Shown in pieces: positions 26,583-47,365 of a DNA stretch of 47,469 bases. Source of the stretch: Actinomycetota bacterium (GTDB lineage Bacteria > Actinomycetota > JAICYB01); assembly GCA_035536535.1 (NCBI GenBank), contig DATLNZ010000087.1, positions 1 through 47,469 on the forward strand, written 5' to 3'. The position numbers and the translations under genes were made by a program. The first letter of the stretch is position 1. The number at the start of each line of letters is the position of its first letter. The notes under the pieces were generated by a model. The model was not told the DNA's origin, ran no database searches, and saw nothing but the letters and a program-made list of their open reading frames with translations.

Positions 26583-26655
26583 TCCGGGGTGGCGCAATCG
26601 GTAGCGCGGCGGACTGTTAATCCGTAGGTTGCGGGTTCGAGTCCCGCCCCCGGAG
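26583..26655 (+). tRNA. tRNA-Asn (anticodon GTT)
   Basis: 73 bases fold as a full cloverleaf: acceptor TCCGGGG pairs with CCCCGGA, discriminator G; D arm GCGC...GCGC; anticodon loop CTGTTAA, anticodon GTT; T arm GCGGG-TTCGAGT-CCCGC. CCA is not encoded. It closes the conserved chromosomal segment, and the accessory region begins right after it, so its 3' end is a candidate integration target. No duplicate of the 3' end is visible to the right in this window. Confidence 0.96.
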
Positions 26656-26717
26656 CCCTCACCAGAAGCTCCGCCATATCCCTGCAGGTCAGGGTAGCCG
26701 CGCCCCTGCAGCTGGAT

Positions 26718-27472: not shown

Positions 27473-27520
27473 GACTTTCTCCCACTCTCTCTTTCCTTAA
27501 AGAGAGAGTGGGAGAAAGTC
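27473..27520. repeat. Perfect 22-bp inverted repeat (strong hairpin)
   Basis: Arms of 22 bases (27473-27494 and 27499-27520) are exact reverse complements around the 4-base loop CCTT. The arms begin GACTTTCTCCCA and end TGGGAGAAAGTC. The stem is pyrimidine-rich on one strand. It is too long and lacks a U-tract for a simple terminator. It is the leftmost part of a TTTCTCC/GGAGAAA array running to 27633. Confidence 0.9.
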
Positions 27521-27525
27521 TCCTA

Positions 27526-27633
27526 CCTGCGGTTTCTCCTGAAAGGAGAATCAGTTTCTCCTGCCCCCCCTCACGAGGAGAAACGGGCTGGAGAAATGGG
27601 ACAAGGCCTTCTCCCGTGTGGAGAAACCGCAGG
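27526..27633. repeat. Nested inverted-repeat array of TTTCTCC/GGAGAAA
   Basis: Outer 14-base arms CCTGCGGTTTCTCC (27526-27539) and GGAGAAACCGCAGG (27620-27633) enclose two smaller hairpins: TTCTCCT-GAA-AGGAGAA (27534-27550) and GTTTCTCCT with AGGAGAAAC (27554-27562 and 27576-27584). A further GGAGAAA is at 27590 and a TTCTCC at 27609. With the adjacent 22-bp hairpin, the heptamer occurs seven times exactly and twice with one mismatch in ~150 bases. It could be a multi-site protein-binding region (recombinase, partition or replication) or a structured RNA. Confidence 0.85.
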
Positions 27634-27772
27634 TCAGCGCGTGGATAAGCCGGGAGACCCCTCTCGCTTGCACGAATCCAGAATCCCACAGCGTTTCTGA
27701 GGTTTAGCCGCTTCCCAAGAGACTGGGAATCGGCAGAAGACGCCCAATCGGGTGAGAGACAATGGCGGTCGA

Positions 27773-27852
27773 GGGACAGAACGCTGGGGGGCACCCGAGT
27801 GTCAACCTATGTCTCTAGAGCGCGCCTCGGCTCGGGGGACAGAACGCTGGGG
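27773..27852 (+). repeat. Two 17-bp direct repeats
   Basis: GGGACAGAACGCTGGGG occurs at 27773-27789 and again at 27836-27852, 63 bases apart, and GCACC follows within a few bases in both. These may be recombinase or regulator sites at the left end of the accessory region. Confidence 0.8.
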
Positions 27853-27896
27853 CACCGGGGAGTCCTGTCTTCTGGACGGGCGACTGGCCACTGAAG

Positions 27897-28177
27897 TTGC
27901 CCCCCCGGGCGAGCTCGACCACGCCGAGCGCGGCGTCCCGCGACCACATCAACGAGCGGATCGCCGCCAGCCAGCGGCGGTGTCCAAGGTGACCGGGGGC
28001 GCGGTCCTGGAGTCGCTGGAGGGGTCGGGGAAGCTTCTGCGCAAGGCATGGGCCGAGCGGGTCCTGGAGTGGCTTAGGGCCGTGCTGAAGGCCGTCGTGG
28101 ACCGGGTGGTCGTGCCGGTGGGCAAGGGCGCGCAGAGGTTTGATCCGGGGTCGGTGGAGATCCGGTGGTTGGCGTAG
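27897..28177 (+). pseudogene. 3' remnant of a large serine recombinase
   Basis: The last ~65 codons of this frame encode GGAVLESLEGSGKLLRKAW, then RAVLKAVVDRVVVPVGKG, then RFDPGSVEIRW. This pattern (RRAVLxAVIDRVxV...RFDPxRVxIxW) is typical of the extreme C terminus of large serine recombinases/integrases. The catalytic N-terminal domain, recombinase domain and zinc ribbon are absent upstream, where only the repeat array lies. It is therefore a 5'-deleted remnant. An N-terminal serine recombinase fragment is found on the - strand at ~39 kb, but the two need not derive from one gene. Confidence 0.6.
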
Positions 28178-38338: not shown

Positions 38339-38887
38339 GTGTGGAAGAGCCGGGTCCTCGATGTGCGCCTACCCAGATTCAACTTCGCTGCTTGAGCGGT
38401 CGTGCTCTTCAAAATCTTGCAAGTGAAACTCCTGCTCTGTCCGAGTGCGGAGTCCGATGAGGCTGAGAACGACCATCTGAAGCCGATGGGACACATCGAC
38501 TCCGCAGGGGGGGGGGCATCAGCAAACTGCCTGTCCTAGTTCGGCAGCCCTGCGCGATTTCCTGCTTCTGTACCCTTTGCGGCCTGAAGCGCCAGGCGGT
38601 CGCATGTGTCCTAGCTGAATCAGACTGCCGGACGGACGAAGGAGATCTACATAGAGCACCGCGCGGAGCAGGGAAAACCTCCAGATCAAACCGCTTGCTG
38701 GCGGCGGTCGCGAAGCATCCGTGGAGCTGTGATGGCCGAGGGCGCAACCTCAGGCCCTTTTCTGTGTAATCCCCCGGGTACGGCGCTTGGTGAAAAGCAG
38801 CCCGGCGTCAGAGGTGTAGATCTCGGTCTCCCAGAGGACCTTCTGACTCGCCTGGTGTCGAAGACCGCGGTGATGATCAAGGATCTG
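38339..38887. other. Region without a supported gene
   Basis: No start-plus-family evidence in any frame. It contains a run of ten G (38507-38516) and the out-of-frame tail of the recombinase remnant. The promoter of the sigma-factor gene must lie at its left end, but no hexamer pair stands out. Confidence 0.4.
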
Positions 38888-39215
38888 TTCTGCGAGACGC
38901 TGATCAGGTTCACGCCAGCCTCCTCGAGGAGGTCGAGAAGGCTCCTGTCGACCACCATCCTCCGCGCAGCTCGCGACAACTCCCACACGAAGATCGCTCG
39001 TGTCTCGTCCAGGCGCCCGAGCATGGCCTCCCGCGCTGGCCGACGTACCGTCCTGCTGTGGGCCGAGACATCGCGGTCCTCGAACCACTCAACGATGCGG
39101 AAGCCCATAGTGGCGGCGGTCGATTCGATGGTGGCCCGCTGCTTGTCCGGCGAGATCGACGTCCCGGTCGGGTCGTTGGAGACCCGGAGGTAGCCGAAGG
39201 CCTCGGCTCGCTCAC
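38888..39215 (-). pseudogene. Serine recombinase N-terminal catalytic domain, frameshifted and truncated
   Basis: Reading the - strand from GTG 39215 (VSEPR), a one-base shift within the first few codons gives AFGYLRVSNDP, TSISPDKQRATIESTAATMGF, IVEWFEDRDVSA and LDETRAIFVWELSRAARR, then EEAGVNLISVSQN. These are the ordered motifs of the resolvase/invertase catalytic domain, including the nucleophile Ser in YLRVS. Homology then stops: no recombinase domain, zinc ribbon or coiled coil follows. The ancestral start overlapped the stop of the upstream membrane-protein gene (GTGA), so it was once the third gene of that operon. Confidence 0.75.
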
Positions 39216-44144: not shown

Positions 44145-45869
44145 ATGACCAAGACGCTCATGGACTCAAGCGAGTTCGTCCGACTCCACTACGCACGCGC
44201 TCCCGGATTGGTGTGGTTTCTCGGTGCCGGCGCATCCGCCTCAGCTGGGATCCCGACTGCTGGTGCGATGGTCTGGGAATTCAAACGGTCGATTTACTGC
44301 TCGAGGATGGGAGTACCCGTCACGGCTGTGCCTGATCTCGGTGACGATCAGGTCAGGCGGCGGATCCAGGCGTATTTCGATGACCTCGGATCCTTTCCGC
44401 CGGCCGGTGCGGACGACGAGTACGCCTGCTACTTCGAGTACATGCACGCCTCGGAGTCTGATCGCAGAGCCATCATTGATTCAGTCGTGCAGCGAGGCGC
44501 AGCCACGTTTGGCCACCGCGCCCTTGGCGCACTCGCCGCAACCGGTAGGATTCCATTGATCGTCACAACTAACTTCGATCCACTCGTAGAGGATGGTGTT
44601 GCACAGGTAACTGGTTCCACCGGTTCTCTGACCGTGGTTAAGCCCGATGCTCACGGCGTCGGCATGGACGCACTGTCTGAGTCGCGATTTCCCTTGCTGG
44701 TTAAGCTCCACGGCGATTTCCGCTCTAGTCGCTTGAAGAACACATCCAACGAGCTGCGGACTCAGGATGCGCAGTTGCGCGAGATGTTGGTGTCTGGACT
44801 TGCTGATCGCGGCCTGGTCGTTGTTGGGTGCAGTGGCAGGGACGGTTCGGTAGTGGAGGCGATCCGCAGAGCAATTGTGTCGGGCGGCGTGAAGCGTGGG
44901 TTGTTCTGGTTACTGCGAGGCGGGGACGAGCCGCCGCACACCGTTGTCCAGTTGCTACACGAGGCCTATTCTCGCGGGCTGGAGGCGTGCCCCGTCAGAA
45001 TCGGGTCTTTCGACGAGGTCGCCGGAGACCTTCTCGCCATGGAGGATCTTCCAACAGGGATGGCCGAGCGATTAGCCCCGCAACGCGACCCGCGACGTGT
45101 AGTGCCCACCCCCATCCGTCGCCGGGGGACGGACTGGCCAGTGGTCCGGCTGAATGCCGTCCCCTTCATCGCATTGCCGCCCCTGTTCCGGTTTGTGGAT
45201 TGTTCGATCGGCGGAAGCGCTGAGGTCCGCCAGGCGGTCGAGAATGCGGGAGCGGACGTGCTGGCCGCACGCAGCCGCCGTGGGGTCATCTGTTTCGGAG
45301 GTGATGAGGCTGTTCGGAAGAGTTTCAGTCCGTATGGCATCACTTCATTTGGTGTGTCTGATGTCATCGCGCCGCGCCTCGGCCACCGGTCGACCGAGGC
45401 GGGCCTGGTGTTCGAGGCGCTATCCCGAGCGCTTACACGTTGCCGTCCTCTGAGACGGGCGCACGAGAAATCGCGGCACCTGTTCGTCGTCTCGGACGTT
45501 AGTGACCAGAGTGTCAGCCGCCTCAAGGCGTCGACAGGAGACCTGGTCGGGAGGATTCCAGGTACGTCGCTTCGTTGGGCAGAGGGTGTCCGTGTCCGGA
45601 TCGACCACAGGCTCGGTCGCACGTGGCTGTGCTATGAGCCGGTGGTGTGGGCTGAACCGATCGAAGGCGCGGACGCGGGAGTGGCTCGTGCGAAGTTCGT
45701 GCGTGAACGACTCGTCCGCCGTTTCAACAGGCAGACCTTCGACCTGCTCGACGCTTGGGCCGAGATTTTGACCGGTCCGCAGCTTGTTGCGTTCGATGTC
45801 CCGGAGGGGGTCGACGCCAGGTTCGAGCTGGATTCGCGCTCGGCCTTCAGCCGCCGAGAGAGAGCGTGA
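44145..45869 (+). CDS. SIR2-APAZ NADase effector of a short-Argonaute (SPARSA) system
   Basis: 574 residues. The N-terminal SIR2 domain (~1-290) has the Rossmann motif FLGAGASASAGIPTAG (25-40), TTNFDPLVEDG with catalytic Asn143, and VKLHGDFRS with His189, then GCSGRDGSV. SIR2 domains of this class hydrolyse NAD(P)+. The C-terminal ~240 residues (from ~330, RLNAVPFIALPPLFRFVD onward) have the position and size of the APAZ domain, which docks onto the Argonaute in place of the missing N/PAZ. GAGGA abuts the ATG. The next gene overlaps by one base (TGATG). Known SPARSA systems deplete NAD+ when the Argonaute binds invader DNA. Confidence 0.9.
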   Translation: MTKTLMDSSEFVRLHYARAPGLVWFLGAGASASAGIPTAGAMVWEFKRSIYCSRMGVPVTAVPDLGDDQVRRRIQAYFDDLGSFPPAGADDEYACYFEYMHASESDRRAIIDSVVQRGAATFGHRALGALAATGRIPLIVTTNFDPLVEDGVAQVTGSTGSLTVVKPDAHGVGMDALSESRFPLLVKLHGDFRSSRLKNTSNELRTQDAQLREMLVSGLADRGLVVVGCSGRDGSVVEAIRRAIVSGGVKRGLFWLLRGGDEPPHTVVQLLHEAYSRGLEACPVRIGSFDEVAGDLLAMEDLPTGMAERLAPQRDPRRVVPTPIRRRGTDWPVVRLNAVPFIALPPLFRFVDCSIGGSAEVRQAVENAGADVLAARSRRGVICFGGDEAVRKSFSPYGITSFGVSDVIAPRLGHRSTEAGLVFEALSRALTRCRPLRRAHEKSRHLFVVSDVSDQSVSRLKASTGDLVGRIPGTSLRWAEGVRVRIDHRLGRTWLCYEPVVWAEPIEGADAGVARAKFVRERLVRRFNRQTFDLLDAWAEILTGPQLVAFDVPEGVDARFELDSRSAFSRRERA

Positions 45870-47365
45870 TGGGGAAGGACGACGTTCCTGCGCCTCCGGG
45901 TCCGGCACCGGCTGCCGTGCCGTCGACGGATCCCCAAGCAGCCTGGGGACCTCAGCTTCCGGCGCACTTCCGCATTTCCGAGCCCATGTTGGCGTTCCAT
46001 CCCGGCCGCTCCGATGACCGACATGTGCATCCTCTGCAGGGGCTGGTCCAGTTCGGGCCGTACGGCCGGTCCCTGCTCGCCTCTGTGCCAGATCCAATTA
46101 GGGTCGCCACCGTTGTGCCTAGAGGCGAATCCGAGCGACTCACGGGGTTGTTGGGAGAGTTGGGGCAGGTGCACGCTCCGGCTGAGCGACGCGACTATCT
46201 TCCTGCCTTCCCGGGGATCCGGAGCGTGTTCGGCACCCGCTTGGTATTGGGCGGTACTTCCACTCACTTAGAGCTACCAGTCGGCATCGACCGGGAAATG
46301 GACGCTCCGACGCCGCACCAAGCTCTTGCCGGACACCTGGTCGCCGCGCTGCGGGCTCTCCGGTCACAGCGCTCGTCGTTCGACGTCGCATGCATCTACC
46401 TGCCTCACCGGTGGACCGCGGGATTCGAAGGAGGGGCCGACGAGGACTTCAACCTGCACGACCACGTCAAGGCCGCTGCGGCGGAATTAGGAATTCCGGT
46501 ACAGATCGTGCTTGAATCGGGTGCTCTAGCCTATCGATGCCGAGCAAGTGTCGCTTGGCGATTGAGCTTGGCTTTATACGTCAAGGCAGGCGGTGTGCCC
46601 TGGGTCATCGCAGAGCGAGAGCCGGCGACCGCCTACGTGGGCATCAGCTATGCGTTGCGTGCCTCTGGCCCCCGGAGATTTGTCACATGTTGCAGCCAAA
46701 TCTTCGATGACGACGGGACCGGGCTCGAGTTCATCGCATACGAAGTCGACGGGGCGCGTATCAGTCTGACCAACCCGTTTCTTAGTCGAGACGACATGCG
46801 CCGAGTCATGACGCGAACGTGCGACCTGTACCGAAGACGGCACGCTGGCCGGATGCCGCAGCGGATAATCGTGCACAAGTCCAGCCGGTTCCTGGAGGAG
46901 GAAGTCAACGGAGCGTTCGACGCCTTGGACGCGGTTGCCGAGATCGAGCTGGTCCAGGTACAAGGCGAGGTCCCTTGGTTCGGGGTTCAGGTAGACGCGC
47001 AGCCGGGAAGAAGGGAAGGCAGAGCGGGCGCATACCCCTGCCTCCGCGGGACCGTCCAACCCATAGGTCGTGACTCGGTATTGATATGGACGCAGGGCAA
47101 CGCGCCGGAGGCGGCAACGGCTGGCCGCAACTACTTCAAAGAGAAGAAGGCCGTGCCCCACCCCCTGATGCTGCAGCGGTTCTCTGGATCCGGTGGCTGG
47201 GACGCAACAGCCCGACGGGTTCTCGCGCTAACAAAGATGAACTGGAACAATGACGGCCTGTACGATCGCCTGCCTACGACTATGAGGTACGCAAGCACCT
47301 TGGCTCGAGTGGCAAAGATGGGTTTTTCCGCGGGACGCACCTACGCGTTTAGGCACGTCATGTAG
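45869..47365 (+). CDS. Short prokaryotic Argonaute (MID-PIWI), catalytically degenerate
   Basis: 498 residues, the usual size of a short pAgo without N and PAZ domains. MID (~90-240): DVACIYLPHRW, then FNLHDHVKAAAAELGIPVQIV, and VKAGGVPWVI, the conserved KxGGxPW at the MID-PIWI border. PIWI (~245-498): YVGISYAL has Ser260 where slicing Argonautes have the first catalytic Asp, and IIVHKSSRF has Ser338 at the third (HKD/HRD) position, so cleavage is not expected. It should bind a 5'-phosphorylated guide and sense complementary DNA or RNA, then activate the partner SIR2. Start ATG overlaps the SIR2-APAZ stop; GTG 45866 is also in frame. Confidence 0.9.
   Translation: MGKDDVPAPPGPAPAAVPSTDPQAAWGPQLPAHFRISEPMLAFHPGRSDDRHVHPLQGLVQFGPYGRSLLASVPDPIRVATVVPRGESERLTGLLGELGQVHAPAERRDYLPAFPGIRSVFGTRLVLGGTSTHLELPVGIDREMDAPTPHQALAGHLVAALRALRSQRSSFDVACIYLPHRWTAGFEGGADEDFNLHDHVKAAAAELGIPVQIVLESGALAYRCRASVAWRLSLALYVKAGGVPWVIAEREPATAYVGISYALRASGPRRFVTCCSQIFDDDGTGLEFIAYEVDGARISLTNPFLSRDDMRRVMTRTCDLYRRRHAGRMPQRIIVHKSSRFLEEEVNGAFDALDAVAEIELVQVQGEVPWFGVQVDAQPGRREGRAGAYPCLRGTVQPIGRDSVLIWTQGNAPEAATAGRNYFKEKKAVPHPLMLQRFSGSGGWDATARRVLALTKMNWNNDGLYDRLPTTMRYASTLARVAKMGFSAGRTYAFRHVM

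Follow-up and report, generated by a model that had tools for sequence, protein, structure and literature searches.

Iteron origins, in which short repeats lie near a primase/helicase-type rep gene, are found in integrative phage satellites such as SaPI and P4. Among actinobacterial replicons, a closely comparable origin is that of the Streptomyces theta plasmid pWTY27, the replication of which requires repAB, with RepB being a predicted DNA primase/polymerase, as well as a 300-bp iteron (PMC3583192). This iteron contains five copies of GTGGGAAC and, as its counterpart on the opposite strand, five copies of TTCCCAC; its discontinuous inverted repeat of ~105 bp, termed IR2, is protected by RepA from DNase I, and the authors propose fold-back hairpins and multimeric RepA (PMC3583192). 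Plasmids pFP11 and pFP1 have the same type of rep and iteron, and their loci are similarly bound by Rep (PMC3583192). Amongst the integrative elements, the pairing of Prim-Pol with a SCO4618-like RepPP gene has been recognised as a replication module of AICEs, and in SLP1, one lies in a region important for replication (PMC3218068).

The locus described here is a dense array of heptamers on a contig of 47,469 nt (C87), which is referred to as the window; the genome to which it belongs comprises 2.62 Mb. Judging from its sequence, we consider it probable (about 0.75) that the array is an oriV of the iteron type, belonging to an actinobacterial element of the Prim-Pol/RepA class, and that this replication origin has been orphaned.

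Anatomy of the heptamer array

The array and the inverted repeats in which it is arranged consist of the following features:

27473..27520, no strand assigned: perfect hairpin with a 22-bp stem and a 4-nt loop, one heptamer per arm
27476..27626, no strand assigned: heptamer array, nine repeats on both strands, taken as iterons
27525..27634, no strand assigned: discontinuous inverted repeat of 110 bp
27624..27640, + strand: AAACCGCAGGTCAGCGC, the motif at the right edge of the array, common to the C16 array and a Streptomyces AICE array (see below)

An earlier note on this DNA had reported seven exact and two one-off copies of TTTCTCC/GGAGAAA as well as a perfect 22-bp hairpin, and a count by position confirms both. 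The exact copies start at 27476 (+), 27511 (-), 27533 (+), 27555 (+), 27577 (-), 27590 (-) and 27620 (-), while the one-off copies are located at 27545 (-, GGAGAAT) and 27608 (+, CTTCTCC), all nine falling within 151 bp. Four successive exact heptamers (27511, 27533, 27555 and 27577) start at exact 22-bp steps, a regularity with a chance of ~0.003 by simulation, albeit one that was spotted after the fact. The nested outer arms mentioned in the same note are present as well, except that they are perfect over 15 bp (27525-27539/27620-27634) rather than 14 bp. Inside these arms, the 110-bp repeat continues with a 5x5 internal loop and then its inner parts, which include a 6-bp inner pair in the opposite sense plus an inner 7+4-bp stem. 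The long stem is built of perfectly paired blocks, each containing the same heptamer, with loops between them that are unpaired throughout. This pattern suggests that not only pairing but also the heptamer itself, as a recognition unit, has been under selection. The right-edge motif has a partial inverted copy, ACCTGCGGTTT, at 27525-27535, and the shorter sequence GCAGGTCA is present at 27629-27636.

That this order is far from random, as previously claimed, is borne out by 2000 dinucleotide shuffles of the 176 bp, amongst which the longest inverted repeat was 14 bp (22 observed) and the top heptamer count was 5 (7 observed). No 176-bp stretch elsewhere in the 47-kb window approaches the array. 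Folded as single-stranded DNA, either strand yields a z of ~ -10, and the folding of both strands as RNA, a check proposed in the earlier note, yields a z of ~ -8. A minus-strand frame of 109 aa is open across the array and nothing indicates that it is coding, in agreement with the previous view that no coding frame explains the repeats.

A further proposed check concerned additional copies in the same genome, of which there are none: the array is single-copy in the 2.62 Mb. BLAST likewise detected no homologues in phages, plasmids, 397 genomes of the phylum or the own genome, and the ORFs flanking the array (82 and 309 aa) have no useful protein relatives. A pattern search with CGGTTTCTCC-N65-95-GGAGAAACCG matched 21 genome loci and 3 viral loci, but each of these contained only the two demanded heptamers and was attributed to chance; the match at L065 proved to be an unrelated AGAAACCCGGTTTCT-type repeat. 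Exact GGTTTCTCCTGAAAGGAGAA was absent from the viral contigs. The hairpin apex, CTCTCTCTTT...AAAGAGAGAG, was encountered in a single further genome, where it lies at an ORF end within a flagellar gene cluster and no array accompanies it; it was rejected as a relative. The structure at this site (L007:1494-1541 of G007, another actinobacterium) is a perfect 21-bp hairpin with a 6-nt loop, having only the CTCTCTCTTT apex in common with the hairpin of the window.

The tRNA-Asn island

Three features define the surroundings of the array:

26583..26657, + strand: tRNA-Asn (GTT), the insertion target of the island (ARAGORN, Rfam)
26612..26658, + strand: attL core of 47 bp, spanning tRNA-Asn from its anticodon to its 3' end
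27989..28177, + strand: putative C-terminal remnant of a large serine recombinase gene, no Pfam match

The gene run upstream of the tRNA-Asn encodes glycyl-tRNA synthetase, pyruvate phosphate dikinase, dnaG and an rpoD-like sigma factor, and the tRNA gene is located directly downstream of the latter, as it is in the relatives G001 and G002. A second copy of the att core, identical at 46/47 positions and without the 5' half of the tRNA, occurs at C16:2363-2409, whereas no second full copy of tRNA-Asn was found in the own genome. Inside this second att copy, C16 encodes a tyrosine integrase, at a distance of 4.4 kb, as well as a replication protein of 683 aa (PriCT_1/AAA_25). Based upon the att copies, C87 and C16 presumably join as one island, with the array located ~0.8 kb inside one of its ends. 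The att duplication of the tRNA 3' end, the tyrosine integrase and the rep module are together the hallmarks of an AICE or IME residing in a tRNA gene. No FtsK/SpoIIIE-type Tra was detected among the ORFs tested in the window or C16, the middle of the island being unassembled. The earlier note had named absence from mobile elements as an outcome that would count against it; instead, the array sits in the tRNA-Asn island.

In relative G002 (L033, C123), an integrase-like (tyrosine) open frame starts directly behind the same tRNA-Asn, and the tRNA-Asn may therefore be a recurrent insertion site. Other sequence follows the tRNA-Asn in G001.

The serine recombinase remnant, the identity of which is suggested by the sequence of its tail, demonstrates that the neighbourhood of the array is decayed mobile DNA, with the remnant itself lying outside the presumed origin. 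DNA homologous to the remnant is found on contigs C96, C93 and C16. A second and apparently truncated piece, an N-terminal resolvase domain of a serine recombinase (PF00239), is located at 38686-39108 (-). A separate repeat family of ~65-70 bp, GGGACAGAACGCTGGGGCACC..., occurs twice in the window (27774-27867) and also at C96:3513-3670 (in tandem) and C58:17208-17293. It lies near C-terminal fragments of serine recombinases and includes a GCTGGGGCACCCCAG dyad on C96; possibly, this family represents element ends or another iteron family. Further along the window, 44145-47365 (+) encodes an intact-looking pair of a SIR2-type effector and a short Argonaute, a SPARSA-type defence system recognised by the PADLOC pAgo and SIR2 models (E down to 1e-170), with 8in8 as its best solved relative. 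This pair is either cargo of the tRNA-Asn island or adjoins it.

Arrays at replication genes of other elements

Sister contigs of the same genome were scanned for heptamer clusters, which led to an array on C93 (L056 7558-7700) that immediately follows the 3' end of an AAA_25 (RepA-like) gene and comprises seven GACGCAC/GTGCGTC heptamers along with a perfect hairpin of 10 bp. This array is a second candidate origin, and the tyrosine integrase of its element adjoins tRNA-Arg. On C16, the sequence directly 3' of the PriCT_1/AAA_25 gene reads AGGTGGTG-GAGT-CACCACCT-AAACCCGCAGGTCAGC-AGGTGGTGGTG and thus combines an element-specific 8-mer in both orientations with the motif of the window (15/16 with one gap); apart from this gap, its middle piece matches AAACCGCAGGTCAGC at the right edge (27624-27638) of the array in the window. 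Viral contigs yielded no relatives of the replication proteins encoded on C93 and C16.

A BLAST match to the right edge of the array, a 17-mer, led to an AICE presumably from Streptomyces (L187, G023:C1:5184000-5200000). Its order is tRNA-Tyr, integrase, HTH_17 xis, array, rep and an FtsK-like gene. Between xis and rep, the CGTCACC heptamer occurs 9-10 times, on both strands, and the motif is present as two inverted copies; neither this array nor its location was selected for by the 17-mer.

With the rep of this AICE as the query, 13 plasmid replicons were retrieved (12 Streptomyces, 1 Actinacidiphila), pFP11 among them; several are close relatives of one another, so they do not amount to 13 independent cases. 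In most of them, rep is closely preceded by a gene for a bifunctional primase/polymerase. Eleven of the 13 have 6-11 non-overlapping heptamers within 800 bp 3' of rep, with both orientations present in 10 and with GCGTCAC, CGTCCCC, GCGTCCC and AGGGACG as the heptamer types, while the heptamer count in background windows elsewhere in the same plasmid loci never exceeds 5; the other two plasmids lack an array 3' of rep. GCAGGTCA is similarly concentrated, with 21 occurrences in 9.1 kb of rep 3' regions vs. 5 in 68 kb elsewhere, and it is located in or next to the array in 10/13 reference replicons, according to an empirical criterion defined in this analysis. Most of the comparison arrays fold better than shuffles, and those of L195 and L206 are nearly as strong as the window array; folding was weak in 4 of the 12 arrays folded (C16, L199, L201 and L204).

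By itself, GCAGGTCA is not diagnostic, because 73 viral contigs containing AAACCGCAGGTCAGCG exhibit no excess of arrays; the motif also occurs without arrays at other actinobacterial sites. A related sequence, GCAGGTCAG, is found 9-26 nt behind three tRNAs of the own genome, namely tRNA-Asn (window 26684), tRNA-Arg (L056:3448) and tRNA-Ala (L109:10101), and AAACCGCAGGTCA is found between genes in several actinobacteria, likewise without arrays.

A probable orphan origin and alternative readings

Iteron origins of Prim-Pol/RepA actinobacterial theta replicons can be recognised by several 7-8-bp repeats on both strands within less than ~300 bp of non-coding DNA. The array possesses repeats on both strands, a long discontinuous inverted repeat, GCAGGTCA and a location in an integrative island. 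It lacks an adjacent initiator gene, since neither a rep or prim-pol gene nor a remnant of one was detected in the window; tblastn with 15 rep, prim-pol, integrase, xis and serine recombinase proteins (E up to 0.05) yielded no match in the window. For this reason, we refer to the locus as an orphan and origin-like, rather than as a complete replicon. A rep-like gene probably belonging to the same island is located on C16. Probably, the array was left behind by a deletion of its int-xis and rep neighbours: in the Streptomyces AICE, int and xis come first and the array follows them, still on the att side of rep, and a loss of int, xis and rep from such an arrangement would leave the layout of the window.

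Several inferences can be made regarding how such an origin would function. The element would be integrative (an AICE/IME or plasmid-like) and inserted into tRNA-Asn, and the heptamer on both strands would serve as the recognition unit of an element-encoded replication initiator, which would bind several heptamers at once. The nested inverted repeats would allow the DNA to fold back into hairpins at initiation, as was proposed for RepA of pWTY27, and after excision, origin melting and the loading of primase and helicase would start at the array. Initiator binding, folding and origin activity are all predicted.

Against this reading stand the missing rep neighbour, the two plasmids with no array, the four comparison arrays that fold only weakly and the presence of GCAGGTCA at sites away from arrays. 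Three further observations do not fit as easily either. Firstly, TTTCTCC differs from the heptamers of all other arrays seen. Secondly, the rep gene on C16, probably of the same island, has its own array with a different 8-mer. Thirdly, a perfect 22-bp hairpin was not seen at other origins; a recent template switch may have produced it, it may be a functional addition, or both may apply. A more far-reaching proposal, which is unlikely when all of its parts are taken jointly, would be that actinobacterial Prim-Pol replicons, both integrative elements and plasmids, share a bipartite origin code, in which constant GCAGGTCA is paired with a 7-8-mer that is present on both strands, differs between elements and evolves together with the initiator, and that the orphan array is a functional origin replicated in trans by the Rep of another element, as a minimal satellite or a decoy, with the 22-bp hairpin as an added structure for strand opening or priming.

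The array could instead be a conjugation locus (clt), at which the TraB/FtsK-type translocase of the element would recognise short repeats and move double-stranded DNA. Streptomyces plasmid clt loci do hold 7-9-bp repeats and imperfect inverted repeats, with TraB reading 8-bp repeats (PMC3583192), and the compared Streptomyces AICE encodes an FtsK-like protein. However, the published repeats are direct (in pWTY27, four of 7 bp within or near traA; PMC3583192), whereas the arrays here mix orientations and the ~110-bp discontinuous inverted repeat resembles the replication iteron of pWTY27. Furthermore, every comparison array found sits at a rep gene, and a tra gene could be recognised in none of the tested parts of the window. 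We consider a clt improbable.

There is also a small chance that the array has no function, being either a palindrome cluster created by template switching at repeated microhomology or a relic of a MITE or transposon end. The same anatomy, with different heptamers, at the rep genes of independent replicons argues against such an accident, and so does the pairing itself, which comes in perfect blocks set apart by loops with no pairing at all, instead of mismatches scattered along a stem. A target-site duplication was not seen, and the genome contains neither a further copy of the array nor a Y1 transposase gene, both of which would be expected of REP/BIME sequences or IS200/IS605 ends. Nevertheless, template switching can generate perfect stems in one event (PMC8794818), the array is single-copy within decayed mobile DNA containing recombinase remnants, and the perfect hairpin of G007 stands alone in another actinobacterium.

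A structured non-coding RNA made from the island, as had also been suggested, or an antisense or regulatory RNA would explain the very strong predicted fold of both strands (z ~ -8), but equal folding of both strands is as expected of a DNA dyad, and an RNA fold would not need the same heptamer in every stem. No Rfam family matches at its gathering score, no promoter- or terminator-like site is present, and no homologue of the array was found from which covariation could be read. A reverse transcriptase gene was not detected in the genome, which equally argues against a retron, DRT or DGR. An RNA is thus very improbable. Scarcely credible, finally, is an array of partition, regulatory operator or integrase-arm sites: the short motif is indeed repeated on both strands, four copies being spaced by exactly 22 bp, GCAGGTCAG recurs behind the tRNA-Asn, tRNA-Arg and tRNA-Ala genes and ParA-family genes are located downstream of the array in several plasmids, but the partition region considered in the earlier note has no parS (TGTTTCACGTGAAACA-like 16-mer) within 3 mismatches in the window, while the recombinase site considered there would lie 0.8 kb from the att core, too far for integrase arm sites, which are expected within ~200 bp, and the heptamers are not clustered near the second att copy.

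Among the options originally listed, the replication origin of an excised element is the one favoured by the evidence, and an unexplained hairpin cluster becomes a testable replication origin. This reading would extend iteron origins of the pWTY27/AICE type from the compared Streptomyces replicons to a class of this phylum that is uncultured. For origins of integrative elements in unannotated genomes, it also provides a practical search signature, in which a Prim-Pol or AAA rep gene is followed on its 3' side by a heptamer present on both strands close to GCAGGTCA. That the heptamer varies while the motif stays constant, in plasmids and integrative elements alike, hints at how the specificity of initiators diverges.

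When compared with pWTY27, the window array similarly has a 7-8-bp repeat on both strands (GTGGGAAC/TTCCCAC there, TTTCTCC/GGAGAAA here) and nested inverted repeats, one of which is discontinuous (~105 bp there, 110 bp here). The heptamer sequence is different and the perfect 22-bp hairpin is an addition in the window. In pWTY27, the replicon includes a predicted primase/polymerase gene and the rep genes lie beside the origin, whereas the window array has no adjoining rep; RepA binding has been demonstrated for pWTY27 only. The Streptomyces AICE is comparable in its both-orientation array, in its two inverted copies of (A)AACCGCAGGTCAGCGC or CGGCAGGTCAGCGG, in residing at a tRNA gene and in having the array on the att side of rep, but its heptamer is CGTCACC, and int, xis and a RepPP-type rep are intact around the array. 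The C16 and C93 arrays, like that of the window, consist of 7-8-mers in both orientations with hairpins, but they are located directly 3' of AAA_25 genes and their 7-8-mers differ from the window heptamer (AGGTGGTG in C16, GGTGCGTC in C93). The C16 array is smaller (~50 bp) and has AAAC(C)CGCAGGTCAGC in common with the window array, while the C93 array lacks GCAGGTCA. Origins of this kind are already known, and the window array would be an exceptionally clear-cut new member, set apart by its unusual perfect hairpin.
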